Under the pieces are notes generated by a model. It was not told the origin of the DNA and made no database searches. It worked only from the letters and a program-made list of their open reading frames with translations. Source: Pyrinomonadaceae bacterium (lineage in GTDB: Bacteria; Acidobacteriota; Blastocatellia; Pyrinomonadales; Pyrinomonadaceae). Taken from it: a DNA stretch of 64,000 nucleotides. A program made the translations under genes and the position numbers. Positions 48,365 through 63,974 of this stretch are shown here, piece after piece; position 1 is the first letter of the stretch; the number at the start of each line of letters is the position of its first letter. The stretch covers positions 24,741 to 88,740 of the forward strand of contig JACVRN010000006.1 of the NCBI GenBank assembly GCA_014534425.1, read 5' to 3'.

Positions 48365-48410
48365 TTTACAAAACTTTACATTCGGTTTGCACAAACTTTA
48401 CCGAACTTTC
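48365..48410 (-). promoter_or_regulatory. CpxR-box-like direct repeats
   Basis: TTTAC-AAAAC-TTTAC (48365-48379; GTAAA-N5-GTAAA on minus strand) and TTTAC-CGAAC-TTTC (48397-48410), at 10-11 bp phasing. Confidence 0.65.
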
Positions 48411-48499
48411 GAGCGCTCGTGCGTCTAAGCTAATCAAGAAGGAGCCTAAGAGGGCACTGGAAATTCTAGAATCTTAAAAATAAGAAGGGGAGAAGAGTG

Positions 48500-49030
48500 A
48501 TGAGATTAACCGGAAGAACGAAGGTCGGACTGGTTGTCACGCTGATTAGTGCGCTTCTGATGATGGCCGCAGTCGCAGGCTTTGCACAGAATGGGCCGCA
48601 GGAAGGCCCTCCGGGTGGGCCGGGCGGCCCGCGCGGTGAAAGAGGCCCTCGCGGCCCCAGAGGCCCTGGCGGCCCCATCCCGTTCCTGCGCGACCTTAAC
48701 CTGACGGACGCTCAGAAGGCGCAGGTCAAGCAGATCGTAGACAACTTCGAGGCCAGCACCAAAGAGTTGCGCGAGAAGATGCGCGGGCTTCGCGGCCCTG
48801 AGGGCGATGCGCTGAGCGGAACCTTTGACGAGGCGGCGGTGCGCTCCGCAGCGCAGGCACGCGCGGCTGTGCAGGTAGAGTTGGAAGTAGCTCATGCGCG
48901 CATGCTCTCGCAGGTCTACAACGTGCTGACGGCTGAGCAGAAGGCGCAGCTTGCAGAACGGCGACAGCAGTTCGAGCAGCGACGACGCGAAGGCCCTGGC
49001 GAGCGCGGCGGAAGACCGGAAGAGAATTAA
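48500..49030 (+). CDS. Spy/CpxP-like periplasmic protein with collagen-like Gly-X-Y tract
   Basis: Signal peptide; RDLNLTDAQKAQVKQIV and VLTAEQKAQLAERRQQ (LTxxQ motifs). Confidence 0.82.
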   Translation: MRLTGRTKVGLVVTLISALLMMAAVAGFAQNGPQEGPPGGPGGPRGERGPRGPRGPGGPIPFLRDLNLTDAQKAQVKQIVDNFEASTKELREKMRGLRGPEGDALSGTFDEAAVRSAAQARAAVQVELEVAHARMLSQVYNVLTAEQKAQLAERRQQFEQRRREGPGERGGRPEEN

Positions 49031-49074
49031 GCGGCAAACAGCATGCTTTTATAGAAAGCAAGTGTGACTACTTT

Positions 49075-49117
49075 TAAGAGGGGCGCGTTTAAGAACGGCT
49101 TTCACGTGCCCCTCTTA
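49075..49117 (+). terminator. Stem-loop 3' of the Spy/CpxP-like gene
   Basis: TAAGAGGGGC (49075-49084) / GCCCCTCTTA (49108-49117), 23-nt loop; weak T tract. Confidence 0.45.
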
Positions 49118-49139
49118 TCTCTACATTCTGCATCCACGT

Positions 49140-49772
49140 ATGGAACACGTAGAAACCTTTCCCTCATATTCGGAGGCGGCGTGTGAAAGTGAAGCGGCGT
49201 CGACTGCCGCTACGGATTACGATCTGGCTCAGAGCGCATCCGTTGGCGACATGGACGCTTTCGAGCATCTCTACCTGAAATATAACCGGCGCGTGTTTAG
49301 CCTCTGCCTGCGAATGCTGCAATCGCACGCAGAGGCCGAAGACATGATGCACGAGATTTTCATAACCCTCTTTGGAAAGATAGGCGGCTTTCGCGGAGAG
49401 TCAGCGTTTGCGACCTGGTTGCATCGTCTGACGGTCAATCATGTGCTGATGCACTTTCGCAAAAGTAGAGTCAGGCGAGAGCGCATCACAGACGACGGCG
49501 AAACTCCCCTGGAGATTGTAGAGGGAACCGCGAACCCTAATCGCATGGCCCTGCTCGACCGCATCACTCTGGATTCCACCATAGCGCAACTTCCGCCAGG
49601 CTACCGTGTCGTCTTCGTCCTTCACGAAATAGAAGGACACGAGCATCACGAGATTGCGGAAATCCTTGGCTGCTCCATAGGCACATCCAAATCGCAACTT
49701 CACAAGGCGCGCATGAAGCTCAGACGATTACTGCGCTCCAAAGAGCAAGAGAAACAACCCTCTAATCAATAA
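49140..49772 (+). CDS. RNA polymerase sigma factor, sigma-70/ECF family
   Basis: [66 protein letters not shown]-terminal sigma4 [24 protein letters not shown]. Confidence 0.94.
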
Positions 49773-60255: not shown

Positions 60256-60561
60256 ATGGCATCGGGTCGTAAACTTCGCGCGTACGTCAATATTCCTACC
60301 TACATGGGGCATTCGAATATACACACTCTGACGATTACGAATATCAGCTTGAGCGGCTGCTTTCTGAGGACAGACATGTGGCTGGACTCCGGCACGAAGG
60401 TCTCGCTCGGCGTGCCTCTTGAGGGCGGAAGGGTTCTGGAGTTAGCGGGAAGGGTCGTGCGCCAGCATGACGAGCCGAAGGGTTACGGCATCAGCTTCAT
60501 CGCTCTGCCCGATGAAGAGAGAAGAGAACTGGCGCTCCTGATAGCAGAGACTATGGAATAG
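60256..60561 (+). CDS. PilZ domain-containing protein
   Basis: NISLSGCFLRTDMWLDSGTKVSLGVPLEGGRVLELAGRVVR. Confidence 0.75.
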   Translation: MASGRKLRAYVNIPTYMGHSNIHTLTITNISLSGCFLRTDMWLDSGTKVSLGVPLEGGRVLELAGRVVRQHDEPKGYGISFIALPDEERRELALLIAETME

Positions 60562-60563
60562 CT

Positions 60564-61262
60564 TTAGGCCACGAACTTGTAGCCGTGGCCCCTGACGGTC
60601 AGAAAGTGTCTTGGGTTCTTCACGTCGTCTTCAAGCTTCTGACGCAGCAGCCCCACATGAACGTCAACAGTGCGCGTCAAGATTGCGGTCTCGTAGCCCC
60701 AAACCTGTCTTAACAACTGCTGGCGTGAAAGAGTCGCGCCGCGCTGCTCTATGAAATAACGCAGGAGTTGAAACTCGCGCGCCGATAGCTCTATGCGCGT
60801 GTCGCCGCGCCTGACTTCCGTGCTGCGAAAATCCACATGCACGGAGCCGAAGCTGTATGTCTCTGACGGCGCATCCGCGAGAGTGCTTTCGGGCTGCCTG
60901 CGGCGAAGGATGGCTTCAAGACGCGCGAGCAGTTCAAGCGGCTCGAAGGGTTTCGTCAGGTAATCGTCCGCGCCGAGTTTTAGTCCGAGGACTTTGTCTA
61001 TGACCTGCCCGCGCGCTGTGAGCATGAGAACGGGAGTGTTGACGCCGCGCTGCCTGAGGTCTCGGCACACGTCGAAGCCGCTCTTGCCCGGCAGCATGAC
61101 ATCCAGAATGATAAGGTCAAAAGCGTCAGGCGCGGAAGCCCGCTCCAATCCTTCCAGTCCGTCCGAGACCGCTTCCACCTGATAACCTTCGGCGCTCAGC
61201 AAATCCGTCAGCGCCATCACCAGTCCGGGGTCGTCTTCTACAAGTAATATCTTATCCGTCAT
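60564..61262 (-). CDS. OmpR/PhoB-family response regulator
   Basis: LVEDDPGLV, LIILDVMLPGKSGFDVC, KPFEPLELLARL; winged-helix C-terminus RQQLLRQVWGYETAILTRTVDVHVGLLRQKLE. Confidence 0.96.
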   Translation of the reverse strand: MTDKILLVEDDPGLVMALTDLLSAEGYQVEAVSDGLEGLERASAPDAFDLIILDVMLPGKSGFDVCRDLRQRGVNTPVLMLTARGQVIDKVLGLKLGADDYLTKPFEPLELLARLEAILRRRQPESTLADAPSETYSFGSVHVDFRSTEVRRGDTRIELSAREFQLLRYFIEQRGATLSRQQLLRQVWGYETAILTRTVDVHVGLLRQKLEDDVKNPRHFLTVRGHGYKFVA

Positions 61263-61267
61263 CTTAG

Positions 61268-63292
61268 TTAAGCGTCTGAAATATTCTTTGAAGTTTCAAT
61301 CGCGGGCAGATGCAGCGTGAAGACAGTGCCTTCTTTGGCGGAAGATTTTACCGTCACGCTTCCGTGTTGGGCGCGCATGTGTCGGTCTACCAAGCAGAGG
61401 CCGAGGCCGGAGCCGTGGATTGTGGAGGACGAGAAGCCCCCGCCCCTGTAGAAAGGCTCAAAGATGTGCGGCAGGTCTGACTGAGCTATACCCGGGCCGT
61501 GGTCTGCGACCCTTATCTGCACCTCCCTGCCTTTCCTGGTTTGAGCGCTCGTCGCAGTGACCTTGAGCCACTTGCCCGTCGCGCCATACTTCAAAGCGTT
61601 CTCAAGCAGGTTCTCCACGGCGCTCTCAAGCGCTTGCGCGTCGGCTAGAACCTGTGGCAGATTGTCTTCCACATTCTTCTCCACAGACCACCCGCCTTCT
61701 TCAAAAGCCGCTCTGTAATCATCAAACGCGCCGTCTATGATTTCGCGCACGTCCACTGGGCGAAGCTCGTAAAGCTTGTGGCCGGATTGAATGCCCGCGA
61801 AGCTCAGCATGCGCTCGATTTGATTTATGAGACGACGCGCCTCCTTCTGAATCACGAGGCCGTACTTTTCAACGCGCGCCGGGTCTTGAATCATCCCCTT
61901 TGACAGATTGTAGCTCGTGGATTGAATTACCGTGAGTGGCGTTCGCAACTCGTGCGAGACGCCCGCCACGAATTCCATCTGCTGTTCGGCCAATGCACGC
62001 GCGCGTCTTGCGGCAAGCGCAAGCATCACTGTGCTGCCCGCAAGCAGTAGCAGGATGCCGAAGCTCAGCGCAAGGTTTCGGCGGCGCGACTGGTCTATCA
62101 GAGCATAGGGCGAGCCTGACTTGCTTTTCAAAACCAGCCGCCAGGAATCCGGGTCATAGTTCTCGGCCTTGGCCTGAAGATTTCCGGGCGGCGGTCTTCT
62201 GGCACCTGCGAAGGGCGCCGGGGGCGGCGGCCCTTCGGGCGGAGGCGGTCGCATATCTGCGGGCGGCGGGCCGGGCTGTCGCTGCTGCTGTTCCGCTCCC
62301 TGCGGCGGTGGAGGTGGAGGCGGCGGCGGCCCGTGCGGCGGACGCCCAGGCTGTAGATGCGGGCTGAAGATAACTATCTCCGCGTCACTGTTGCGAATTA
62401 AATCCTCGCCCGCGCGAGCGTCCGACTTGTAGATGAATCTGGCGGGACGCCCCGTGACAATTGCTAAACTGTAATCATTCAGAGGCTCGTGCCCGAAGTG
62501 GCGCTCGATTAGCTCCGGCAGCAGATAGCTCTCCATGTAGCTCAAATCGAACTCAAGAAAACACCAGCCCTTCAATTGAGGGACGCGCACGAGGCCATCG
62601 GGCGGCGCGGGCCTTAGCTGCTGAAGCAACAGCCTGGGGTCTGTGCCGAAGGGAGGCATGCGCCCTTGCGGCGCGTTCTCCTGCGGCGCGTCGTTCGCAG
62701 ACGGAGTTGGCGCGTCGGGCTGAGGCGGTGGTGGCGGCTCACGGTTGACGACGAGTGGAAAGACCAGCACGGGTCTTTCTGCTGCGACTGCCAGAGCAAA
62801 GCCGTTCGGGAAAAGCGGCGGCTCGCCTCCTGGCATTCGCAGACGGTTTTCCAGAATCGTGCGGAACAGCTTCAGCGATTCGGGCCAGGACTCTTCCGTG
62901 AACTGCTTGTCGGTTGAGCGCAGGCGCTTGAAGGGCACGCCATCTTTGTTCTCGACGGCGAAGCTGACGGAGCTTAACATCTGCGGTCGCTCTGCCGTGG
63001 AGCGCCATTGCAGGAACAGATTCGAGAGGTAAGGCTCGAAGGCCGTGTCTGCGGGAACCGTCGGCGAAGGTCTGAAGTAAGGAAGCGGGTAATGAATCCT
63101 CTCTGCGAAATCGTCGCTGAAGTTTCGTATAGCAGCCTCAACGTATTCCCTCTGCTGGCGGCGATCTGCTTCGCTCGCGCGATTAATCCAGCGATACTGA
63201 AGAACGGCGGCCACGCACATCACTAGCATCAAAGCTATGCAGACAATCAACAGCCAGCCGGATTTGTTCGCGCGCGTTCCCTTCATCATCAT
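61268..63292 (-). CDS. Membrane sensor histidine kinase with proline-rich extracytoplasmic domain
   Basis: Two TM segments; FVAGVSHELRTPLTVIQS; ENLLENALKYG; VADHGPGIAQSDLPHIFEPFYRGG. Confidence 0.95.
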   Translation of the reverse strand: MMMKGTRANKSGWLLIVCIALMLVMCVAAVLQYRWINRASEADRRQQREYVEAAIRNFSDDFAERIHYPLPYFRPSPTVPADTAFEPYLSNLFLQWRSTAERPQMLSSVSFAVENKDGVPFKRLRSTDKQFTEESWPESLKLFRTILENRLRMPGGEPPLFPNGFALAVAAERPVLVFPLVVNREPPPPPQPDAPTPSANDAPQENAPQGRMPPFGTDPRLLLQQLRPAPPDGLVRVPQLKGWCFLEFDLSYMESYLLPELIERHFGHEPLNDYSLAIVTGRPARFIYKSDARAGEDLIRNSDAEIVIFSPHLQPGRPPHGPPPPPPPPPQGAEQQQRQPGPPPADMRPPPPEGPPPPAPFAGARRPPPGNLQAKAENYDPDSWRLVLKSKSGSPYALIDQSRRRNLALSFGILLLLAGSTVMLALAARRARALAEQQMEFVAGVSHELRTPLTVIQSTSYNLSKGMIQDPARVEKYGLVIQKEARRLINQIERMLSFAGIQSGHKLYELRPVDVREIIDGAFDDYRAAFEEGGWSVEKNVEDNLPQVLADAQALESAVENLLENALKYGATGKWLKVTATSAQTRKGREVQIRVADHGPGIAQSDLPHIFEPFYRGGGFSSSTIHGSGLGLCLVDRHMRAQHGSVTVKSSAKEGTVFTLHLPAIETSKNISDA

Positions 63293-63340
63293 TCATTATA
63301 GCTTTCAAAAATGGCTCAACGCCCGCCCGCACGGCGAGAA

Positions 63341-63386
63341 TTTACCTTCTCTTTACAAACCCACGCTCTCTTTACCGAAGCTTTAC
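63341..63386 (-). promoter_or_regulatory. CpxR-box-like direct repeats in histidine kinase/Spy divergent intergenic region
   Basis: TTTAC-N6-TTTAC at 63341-63356 and 63371-63386 (GTAAA-N6-GTAAA on the minus strand). Confidence 0.7.
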
Positions 63387-63449
63387 ACGCCTTGAGACGA
63401 TTTCCCATTAAAATAATTGAAGCGATAATTTCGAAAGGAGAATCAAGCG

Positions 63450-63974
63450 ATGAACAAGCGTGTAGCAATCATAGGCATAGTTGCCGTGCTCGTCTGCGGC
63501 GCAATCTTTGCGACGGCACAAAGCGGCACAGGCCCGCGCGCGCAGCAACCGCCCAGAGGCATAGAGCCGCCGCCTCCACCTCCACCGCCCTTCGGCCTCC
63601 CGCACCTGGACAGGCTGGCGCGAGACCTGAACCTGACGGAAGCACAGCAGGCTGAGATTAAATCGCTGCTGGACGCCGCGCACACAACGCTCGACGCTCT
63701 GATGAAGAAGATGGACGCGGAGCGCAGGCAACTAGATACGGCCACGGCTGGAGGCCAGTTCGACGAAGCACAGGTGCGCGCCCTAGCCACACAACAGTCG
63801 CAGACGTTTGCGGAACTGATAGTCGAGCATAAAAGGCTCGAAGCCAAACTCTACAGCCTGCTGACCCAGGAGCAACGCAACCGCTTCGACCAGCTACGAC
63901 AACGCAGGCGGCAACCTCCGCCGCCCCCGCCTCCACCACCGCCGCCCGACGACGACGGGCCGAACGAGAGATGA
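63450..63974 (+). CDS. Spy/CpxP-like periplasmic protein with polyproline ends
   Basis: Signal peptide; RDLNLTEAQQAEIKSLL and LLTQEQRNRFDQLRQ (LTxxQ-like); PPPPPPPP and PPPPPPPPPPP tracts. Confidence 0.82.
   Translation: MNKRVAIIGIVAVLVCGAIFATAQSGTGPRAQQPPRGIEPPPPPPPPFGLPHLDRLARDLNLTEAQQAEIKSLLDAAHTTLDALMKKMDAERRQLDTATAGGQFDEAQVRALATQQSQTFAELIVEHKRLEAKLYSLLTQEQRNRFDQLRQRRRQPPPPPPPPPPPDDDGPNER

Follow-up and report, generated by a model that had tools for sequence, protein, structure and literature searches.

A conserved array of TTTAC direct repeats is a probable operator of a Cpx-like two-component system in Acidobacteriota

Results

The window analysed here is a 64,000-nucleotide stretch of a draft genome of a Pyrinomonadaceae bacterium (Acidobacteriota), and its right end is the end of the contig. 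Close to that end, two genes lie 5 bp apart on the minus strand and form one operon, with Pfam domains scoring above the gathering scores. The first (60564-61262) encodes an OmpR/PhoB-family response regulator with Response_reg and Trans_reg_C domains and the recognition helix TRTVDVHVGLLRQKL; every NCBIfam equivalog model scored below its cut-off on this protein. The other (61268-63292) encodes a sensor histidine kinase of 674 amino acids, in which Pfam, NCBIfam and a structure model place a transmembrane segment, a large extracytoplasmic domain with proline-rich loops, a second transmembrane segment, and HisKA and HATPase_c domains. No HAMP domain was found in the kinase by Pfam scan. A receiver and winged-helix regulator is thus paired in an operon with a HisKA kinase, as in OmpR/PhoB-family two-component systems. 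Residues 1-430 of the kinase were modelled (mean pLDDT 81, 38 sequences), and the top fold matches were double-Cache/tandem-PDC domains, i.e. those of the chemoreceptors Htc10, McpU and TlpQ and of sporulation kinase D. These matches are weak, all short of E 0.001 and with low TM-scores, and we describe the sensor as double-Cache-like with moderate confidence. A small PilZ-domain gene (60256-60561) is convergent with the regulator gene, its end lying 2 bp from the regulator stop.

On the plus strand, divergent from the kinase gene, lies a gene (63450-63974) for a 174-amino-acid periplasmic protein of the Spy/LTXXQ family with the motifs LTEAQ and LTQEQ, 26 bp past which the contig stops. This is the proposed target. 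The protein belongs to the family by its Pfam LTXXQ score (53.5 bits against a cut-off of 24.3) and by a hydrophobic, signal-like N-terminus, and its closest solved relative is Spy (E 4e-9), CpxP being matched at E 0.015. Open reading frames and Pfam matches agree with the sequence-only reading of this DNA, which had placed the regulator and kinase on the minus strand and the LTXXQ gene divergently on the plus strand.

The region between the kinase and Spy-like genes contains four TTTAC half-sites on the plus strand (63341-63345, 63352-63356, 63371-63375 and 63382-63386). They form a distal pair (63341-63356) and a proximal pair (63371-63386), each TTTAC-N6-TTTAC or, read on the minus strand, GTAAA-N6-GTAAA, and the proximal pair overlaps the -35 region of the Spy-like gene promoter. 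The two pairs had been reported by the sequence-only reading at these same positions. Both are indeed present; in fact they are one four-half-site array, TTTAC-N6-TTTAC-N14-TTTAC-N6-TTTAC (63341-63386), oriented toward the Spy/LTXXQ gene, with a fixed spacing of 11/19/11 that is kept as a unit across orthologous loci. No other exact GTAAA-N6-GTAAA match occurs in the window; the number of such pairs expected from composition is 0.04 for a window and about 1e-4 for one intergenic region. The exact four-site array has two copies in the 5.4-Mb draft genome (reversed control 0; composition expectation about 1e-6), the second lying on a separate contig upstream of a cupredoxin-YHYH gene pair. Searching the same genome with the single-pair pattern gave 15 matches against one for the reversed control, with sites on contigs C8, C22, C69, C78, C103, C267, C278, C300 and C316.

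Exact arrays, which we term A-type, were then sought in related genomes. Among 120 genomes of the family they occur in the window's own genome (G000, two copies) and in G011, G029, G120, G129, G130 and G138. The search of 165 class genomes yielded 11 exact arrays, carried by 10 of them; these are draft genomes, and several of the array-bearing ones are close relatives whose sites are not independent. The reversed control in the 165 class genomes gave no match at up to one mismatch. Eight exact arrays and one single-mismatch array are divergent from an orthologous kinase gene, and the exact array is present in each of the eight genomes that score highest for the kinase within the class. In the other two exact-array genomes, the kinase is found at a contig start (G120) or on another contig (G156). 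Judged from sequence conservation, the array is a genuine control site that is deeply conserved within Acidobacteriota.

The -10 element of the Spy-like gene, TAAAAT (63409-63414, plus strand), begins 27 nt past the first base of the last half-site, and that of the kinase operon, TATAAT (63295-63300, minus strand), lies 40 nt from the other array edge. We compared these distances in the nine kinase-linked loci (the eight exact arrays and the single-mismatch array). The target-side -10-like hexamer starts 27-28 nt after the last half-site start in all nine, and the kinase-side TATAAT-like hexamer starts 38-41 nt from the opposite array edge. Among the more distant loci the intervening sequence diverges widely while the -10 distances are kept, and thus the two promoters seem to be organised around the array. 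The check set by the sequence-only reading, conservation in orthologous kinase/target intergenic regions, therefore came out in favour of the site, with fixed -10 distances on both sides. Single-mismatch arrays in G157 and G158, which do not adjoin the kinase, have no -10 at the usual distance, and the -10 of the second own-genome array is weak (CAGACA). In most orthologs the kinase start codon is at or near the expected transcription start, a few nucleotides from the -10 (63284-63300 in the window), which suggests a leaderless-like kinase mRNA. Of the three ATG codons of MMMKG, the second or the third may be the true kinase start.

The gene divergent from the kinase is Spy-like in G000 and G011. 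The gene after Spy in G011 is an ortholog (68%) of a cupredoxin-domain protein of G000, both G011 genes lying in one run behind one array; in G000 the cupredoxin-domain gene is behind the second array, followed by the YHYH-domain gene. G049 has two arrays, one before a di-haem oxidoreductase gene and the other before a Spy gene and then a YHYH gene. The array precedes a di-haem oxidoreductase gene in G156, and a 250-amino-acid gene followed by a di-haem oxidoreductase gene in G162. In G029, G120, G129, G130 and G138, the target is a protein of about 173 amino acids, for which the one scanned (G129) gave a sub-threshold DUF1579 match. Array copies away from the kinase point at same-strand genes (cupredoxin-YHYH in the window's own genome, Spy-YHYH, and di-haem oxidoreductase). 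Most of the outputs are exported proteins, and several have a link to metals or redox chemistry. Operator and regulator stay while output genes are swapped between species.

A pattern search located a second array in the window, TTTAC-TTTAC-TTTGC-TTTAC with 10/11/11 spacing (48365-48401, plus strand), upstream of another gene identified as Spy/LTXXQ-family by profile search (48497-49030, plus strand); this array and gene are a probable further member of the regulon. An ECF sigma factor gene (49140-49772) follows on the same strand, and a Spy/metal-resistance-like protein beside an ECF sigma factor (48497-49772) recalls the CnrX-CnrH arrangement. On contig C177 of the same genome (L056 4086-4112), TTTGC-TTTAC-TTTAC repeats at intervals of 11 bp, followed by TAAAAT 27 nt further along, lie upstream of a gene for a 1084-amino-acid outer-membrane barrel protein, a possible additional regulon member. 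No array was found upstream of the LTXXQ genes on C261, C96 and C316 (three of the five in the genome) in the fetched loci.

Upstream regions of 45 distant kinases of the same kind were also scanned. Significant arrays, mainly in divergent orientation, were found for about half, including records from Vicinamibacteria, Thermoanaerobaculia and one Chloroflexaceae; about half of the 45 had no significant upstream array, and the box is thus not universal in the kinase family. Such distant kinases carry a second layout, the B-type box TTTACAT-N-CTTAAC-N6-TTTGC-N5-CTTAA, which was detected in 66 of the 165 genomes searched for the class and in 43 of the 396 searched for the phylum (control matches 0). 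For 45 of the 79 matches in the class, spread over 44 genomes, a listed kinase match lies no more than 4 kb away. Of 58 distinct boxes, 33 have the -10 at its most frequent position, 26 nt from the last half-site. The gene downstream typically encodes an exported protein of about 300-350 amino acids; those scanned had no Pfam match. Several genomes also have the gene of an outer-membrane barrel protein downstream. Pho repeats are of the TTAACA type, which the B-type box resembles. A Pho-box reading was rejected, as no downstream gene examined was identified as a phosphate gene; the products were the unclassified exported protein of about 300 amino acids, outer-membrane barrels, beta-lactamase-fold and aspartyl-protease proteins, and others. 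B-type-like boxes also lie upstream of ECF-sigma-like genes at three loci of other Acidobacteriota (L162, L164 and L181), with a related kinase on the same loci.

A third layout, C-type, lies beside a paralogous system on contig C305 of G000 and in G011 and G041. The C305 kinase/regulator genes (L048 3447-6658; about 28.1-31.4 kb of C305) have a divergent 153-amino-acid gene, and the array there comprises about six TTTAC-like tandem repeats, spaced roughly every 10 bp; this arrangement is kept in G011 (L106).

Discussion

We propose with good confidence that the array serves the adjacent two-component system as its operator, to which the phosphorylated regulator would bind as two dimers, activating the divergent gene and probably regulating its own operon. 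The extracytoplasmic domain of the kinase would read a periplasmic signal, perhaps metal, redox or misfolded protein. Once phosphorylated, the OmpR-family regulator (60564-61262) would sit on the four TTTAC half-sites in the form of two dimers, each arranged head to tail on an 11-bp repeat. Of these, the proximal one would cover the -35 region and recruit RNA polymerase, in a PhoB-like class II activation, to the promoter with its -10 at 63409-63414, and more exported Spy-like protein would be made. The fixed distance between the array and the opposite-strand -10 points to probable autoregulation of the kinase operon. The sequence-only reading had the regulator both driving the Spy/CpxP-like gene and regulating itself. 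Because the array is conserved, its -10 distances are fixed and its layout follows regulator phylogeny, control of the Spy-like gene is very likely, and autoregulation is plausible.

That the regulator would activate rather than repress is suggested by the geometry. The array and the conserved -10 spacing fit a head-to-tail repeat layout near the -35 region, and a -35 consensus hexamer is missing from its expected position in the target promoter, which suggests that this promoter depends on an activator. It is conceivable that the regulator represses the divergent promoter or controls its own operon alone, given that a regulator bound at the proximal half-site, which overlaps the -35 region, could block polymerase, and that the distance to the kinase -10 is conserved. 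We consider this unlikely, since the lack of a -35 hexamer is typical of activator-dependent promoters and kinase-remote arrays still point at same-strand genes.

The adjacent regulator very probably is the protein that binds the array. In a maximum-likelihood tree of 48 regulators, on which box types were assigned by hand, regulators with A-type arrays (11/19/11) form one clade (98/92) and those with C-type arrays another (100/95), and types A, B and C can be placed on the tree with only two changes. Among the six OmpR-type response regulators of the window's own genome, the recognition helix TRTVD[VM]H is found only in the window regulator and its C305 paralog (52% identical). This tracking of box types with the regulator tree, together with the helix, makes a strong indirect case for the adjacent regulator. 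Another regulator could occupy the array, kinase adjacency being secondary; the C305 paralog has a related helix, and a tandem TTTAC array belonging to it precedes the 153-amino-acid gene. This is harder still to sustain, as box types sort with the neighbouring regulator on the tree, G011 has both systems, each with its own box type, and the exact array follows the kinase clade. We therefore retain the adjacent regulator as the predicted binder.

In the literature the CpxR consensus is given as GTAAA-(N)4-8-GTAAA (PMC5063474, PMC12802237). A single spacer base sets the window's proximal pair apart from the cpxP site of P. aeruginosa, GTAAAGCTTGGGTAAA (PMC12802237). Two conserved N6 pairs upstream of the target fall within this consensus, so the likeness to a CpxR box is closer than stated in the sequence-only reading, which compared N6 with a quoted N5. 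The circuit proposed there, Cpx-like and for envelope stress, is not supported in the sense of a Cpx system. The CpxR equivalog (NF008199) scored 168.9 bits on the regulator against a cut-off of 341 and was outscored by the RpaB, MtrA, OmpR and PhoB models; the CpxA equivalog (NF007007) scored 100.2 bits on the kinase against 486; and CpxP equivalogs scored about 32 bits on the Spy-like protein against cut-offs of 148-238. A true Cpx system, with CpxRA orthologs and CpxP acquired or retained in Acidobacteriota, would account for the half-sites, the N6 spacing and a divergent gene with two LTXXQ motifs. It is nevertheless very improbable, and we reject it on the sub-cut-off scores of all three components, the double-Cache-like sensor in which HAMP was not found, and a divergent target other than Spy/CpxP in most relatives. 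What is shared with CpxA-CpxR-CpxP of Gammaproteobacteria is an operon of OmpR-family regulator and membrane kinase, a divergent LTXXQ periplasmic gene and GTAAA direct repeats; what differs is a larger sensor, four half-sites at 11/19/11, a target swapped in relatives and a target protein nearer Spy than CpxP. By these comparisons the system works like Cpx but is not a member of it, and the resemblance would reflect similar DNA recognition by a related winged helix together with an independent link to a Spy-like output. Finally, chance repeats within an AT-rich intergenic spacer, to which short half-sites might lend themselves, are ruled out with near certainty by 11 exact arrays against about 1e-4 expected in 165 genomes and by zero reversed-control matches.

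PhoB/OmpR-type class II activated promoters have 11-bp direct repeats. The array is like them in its head-to-tail 11-bp half-sites, the last over the -35 region, and in its fixed -10 distance, and differs in half-site sequence, in having two predicted dimers separated by 19 bp, and in its targets, none of those examined being identified as a phosphate gene. RpaB of cyanobacteria, which binds TTACA-type direct repeats, gave the highest-scoring NCBIfam model for the regulator, still below cut-off (213.9 bits against 330), and its kinase and targets differ. The Spy chaperone shares the LTXXQ family with the window protein and is its best solved relative, but the latter is below the Spy equivalog cut-off (58.9 against 174 bits) and has proline-rich tails. 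The sites bound by M. tuberculosis PhoP are 7-bp repeats set apart by a 4-bp spacer (PMC4832192).

The system was not found described in the open literature searched, and searches on acidobacterial CpxP, TTTAC repeats and YHYH found nothing relevant. On balance, we lean towards an undescribed two-component family that spans the phylum Acidobacteriota and may extend to Chloroflexota. Its regulator, operator and promoter geometry would be ancient and fixed, while the adjoining output gene would have been repeatedly replaced (Spy, cupredoxin, YHYH, di-haem oxidoreductase, DUF1579-like, and unclassified exported proteins with an outer-membrane barrel). It would represent a circuit for envelope or metal stress that has converged on Cpx even in its DNA half-site. 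In a phylum whose regulation is little studied, this gives a widespread two-component family a probable cognate operator, regulon candidates and a promoter model, and the box types allow regulons to be read from genomes. A stress context is suggested for uncharacterised families such as YHYH, the cupredoxin protein and the DUF1579-like protein, and the swapped targets form a natural record of outputs gained and lost by a fixed regulator-operator pair.
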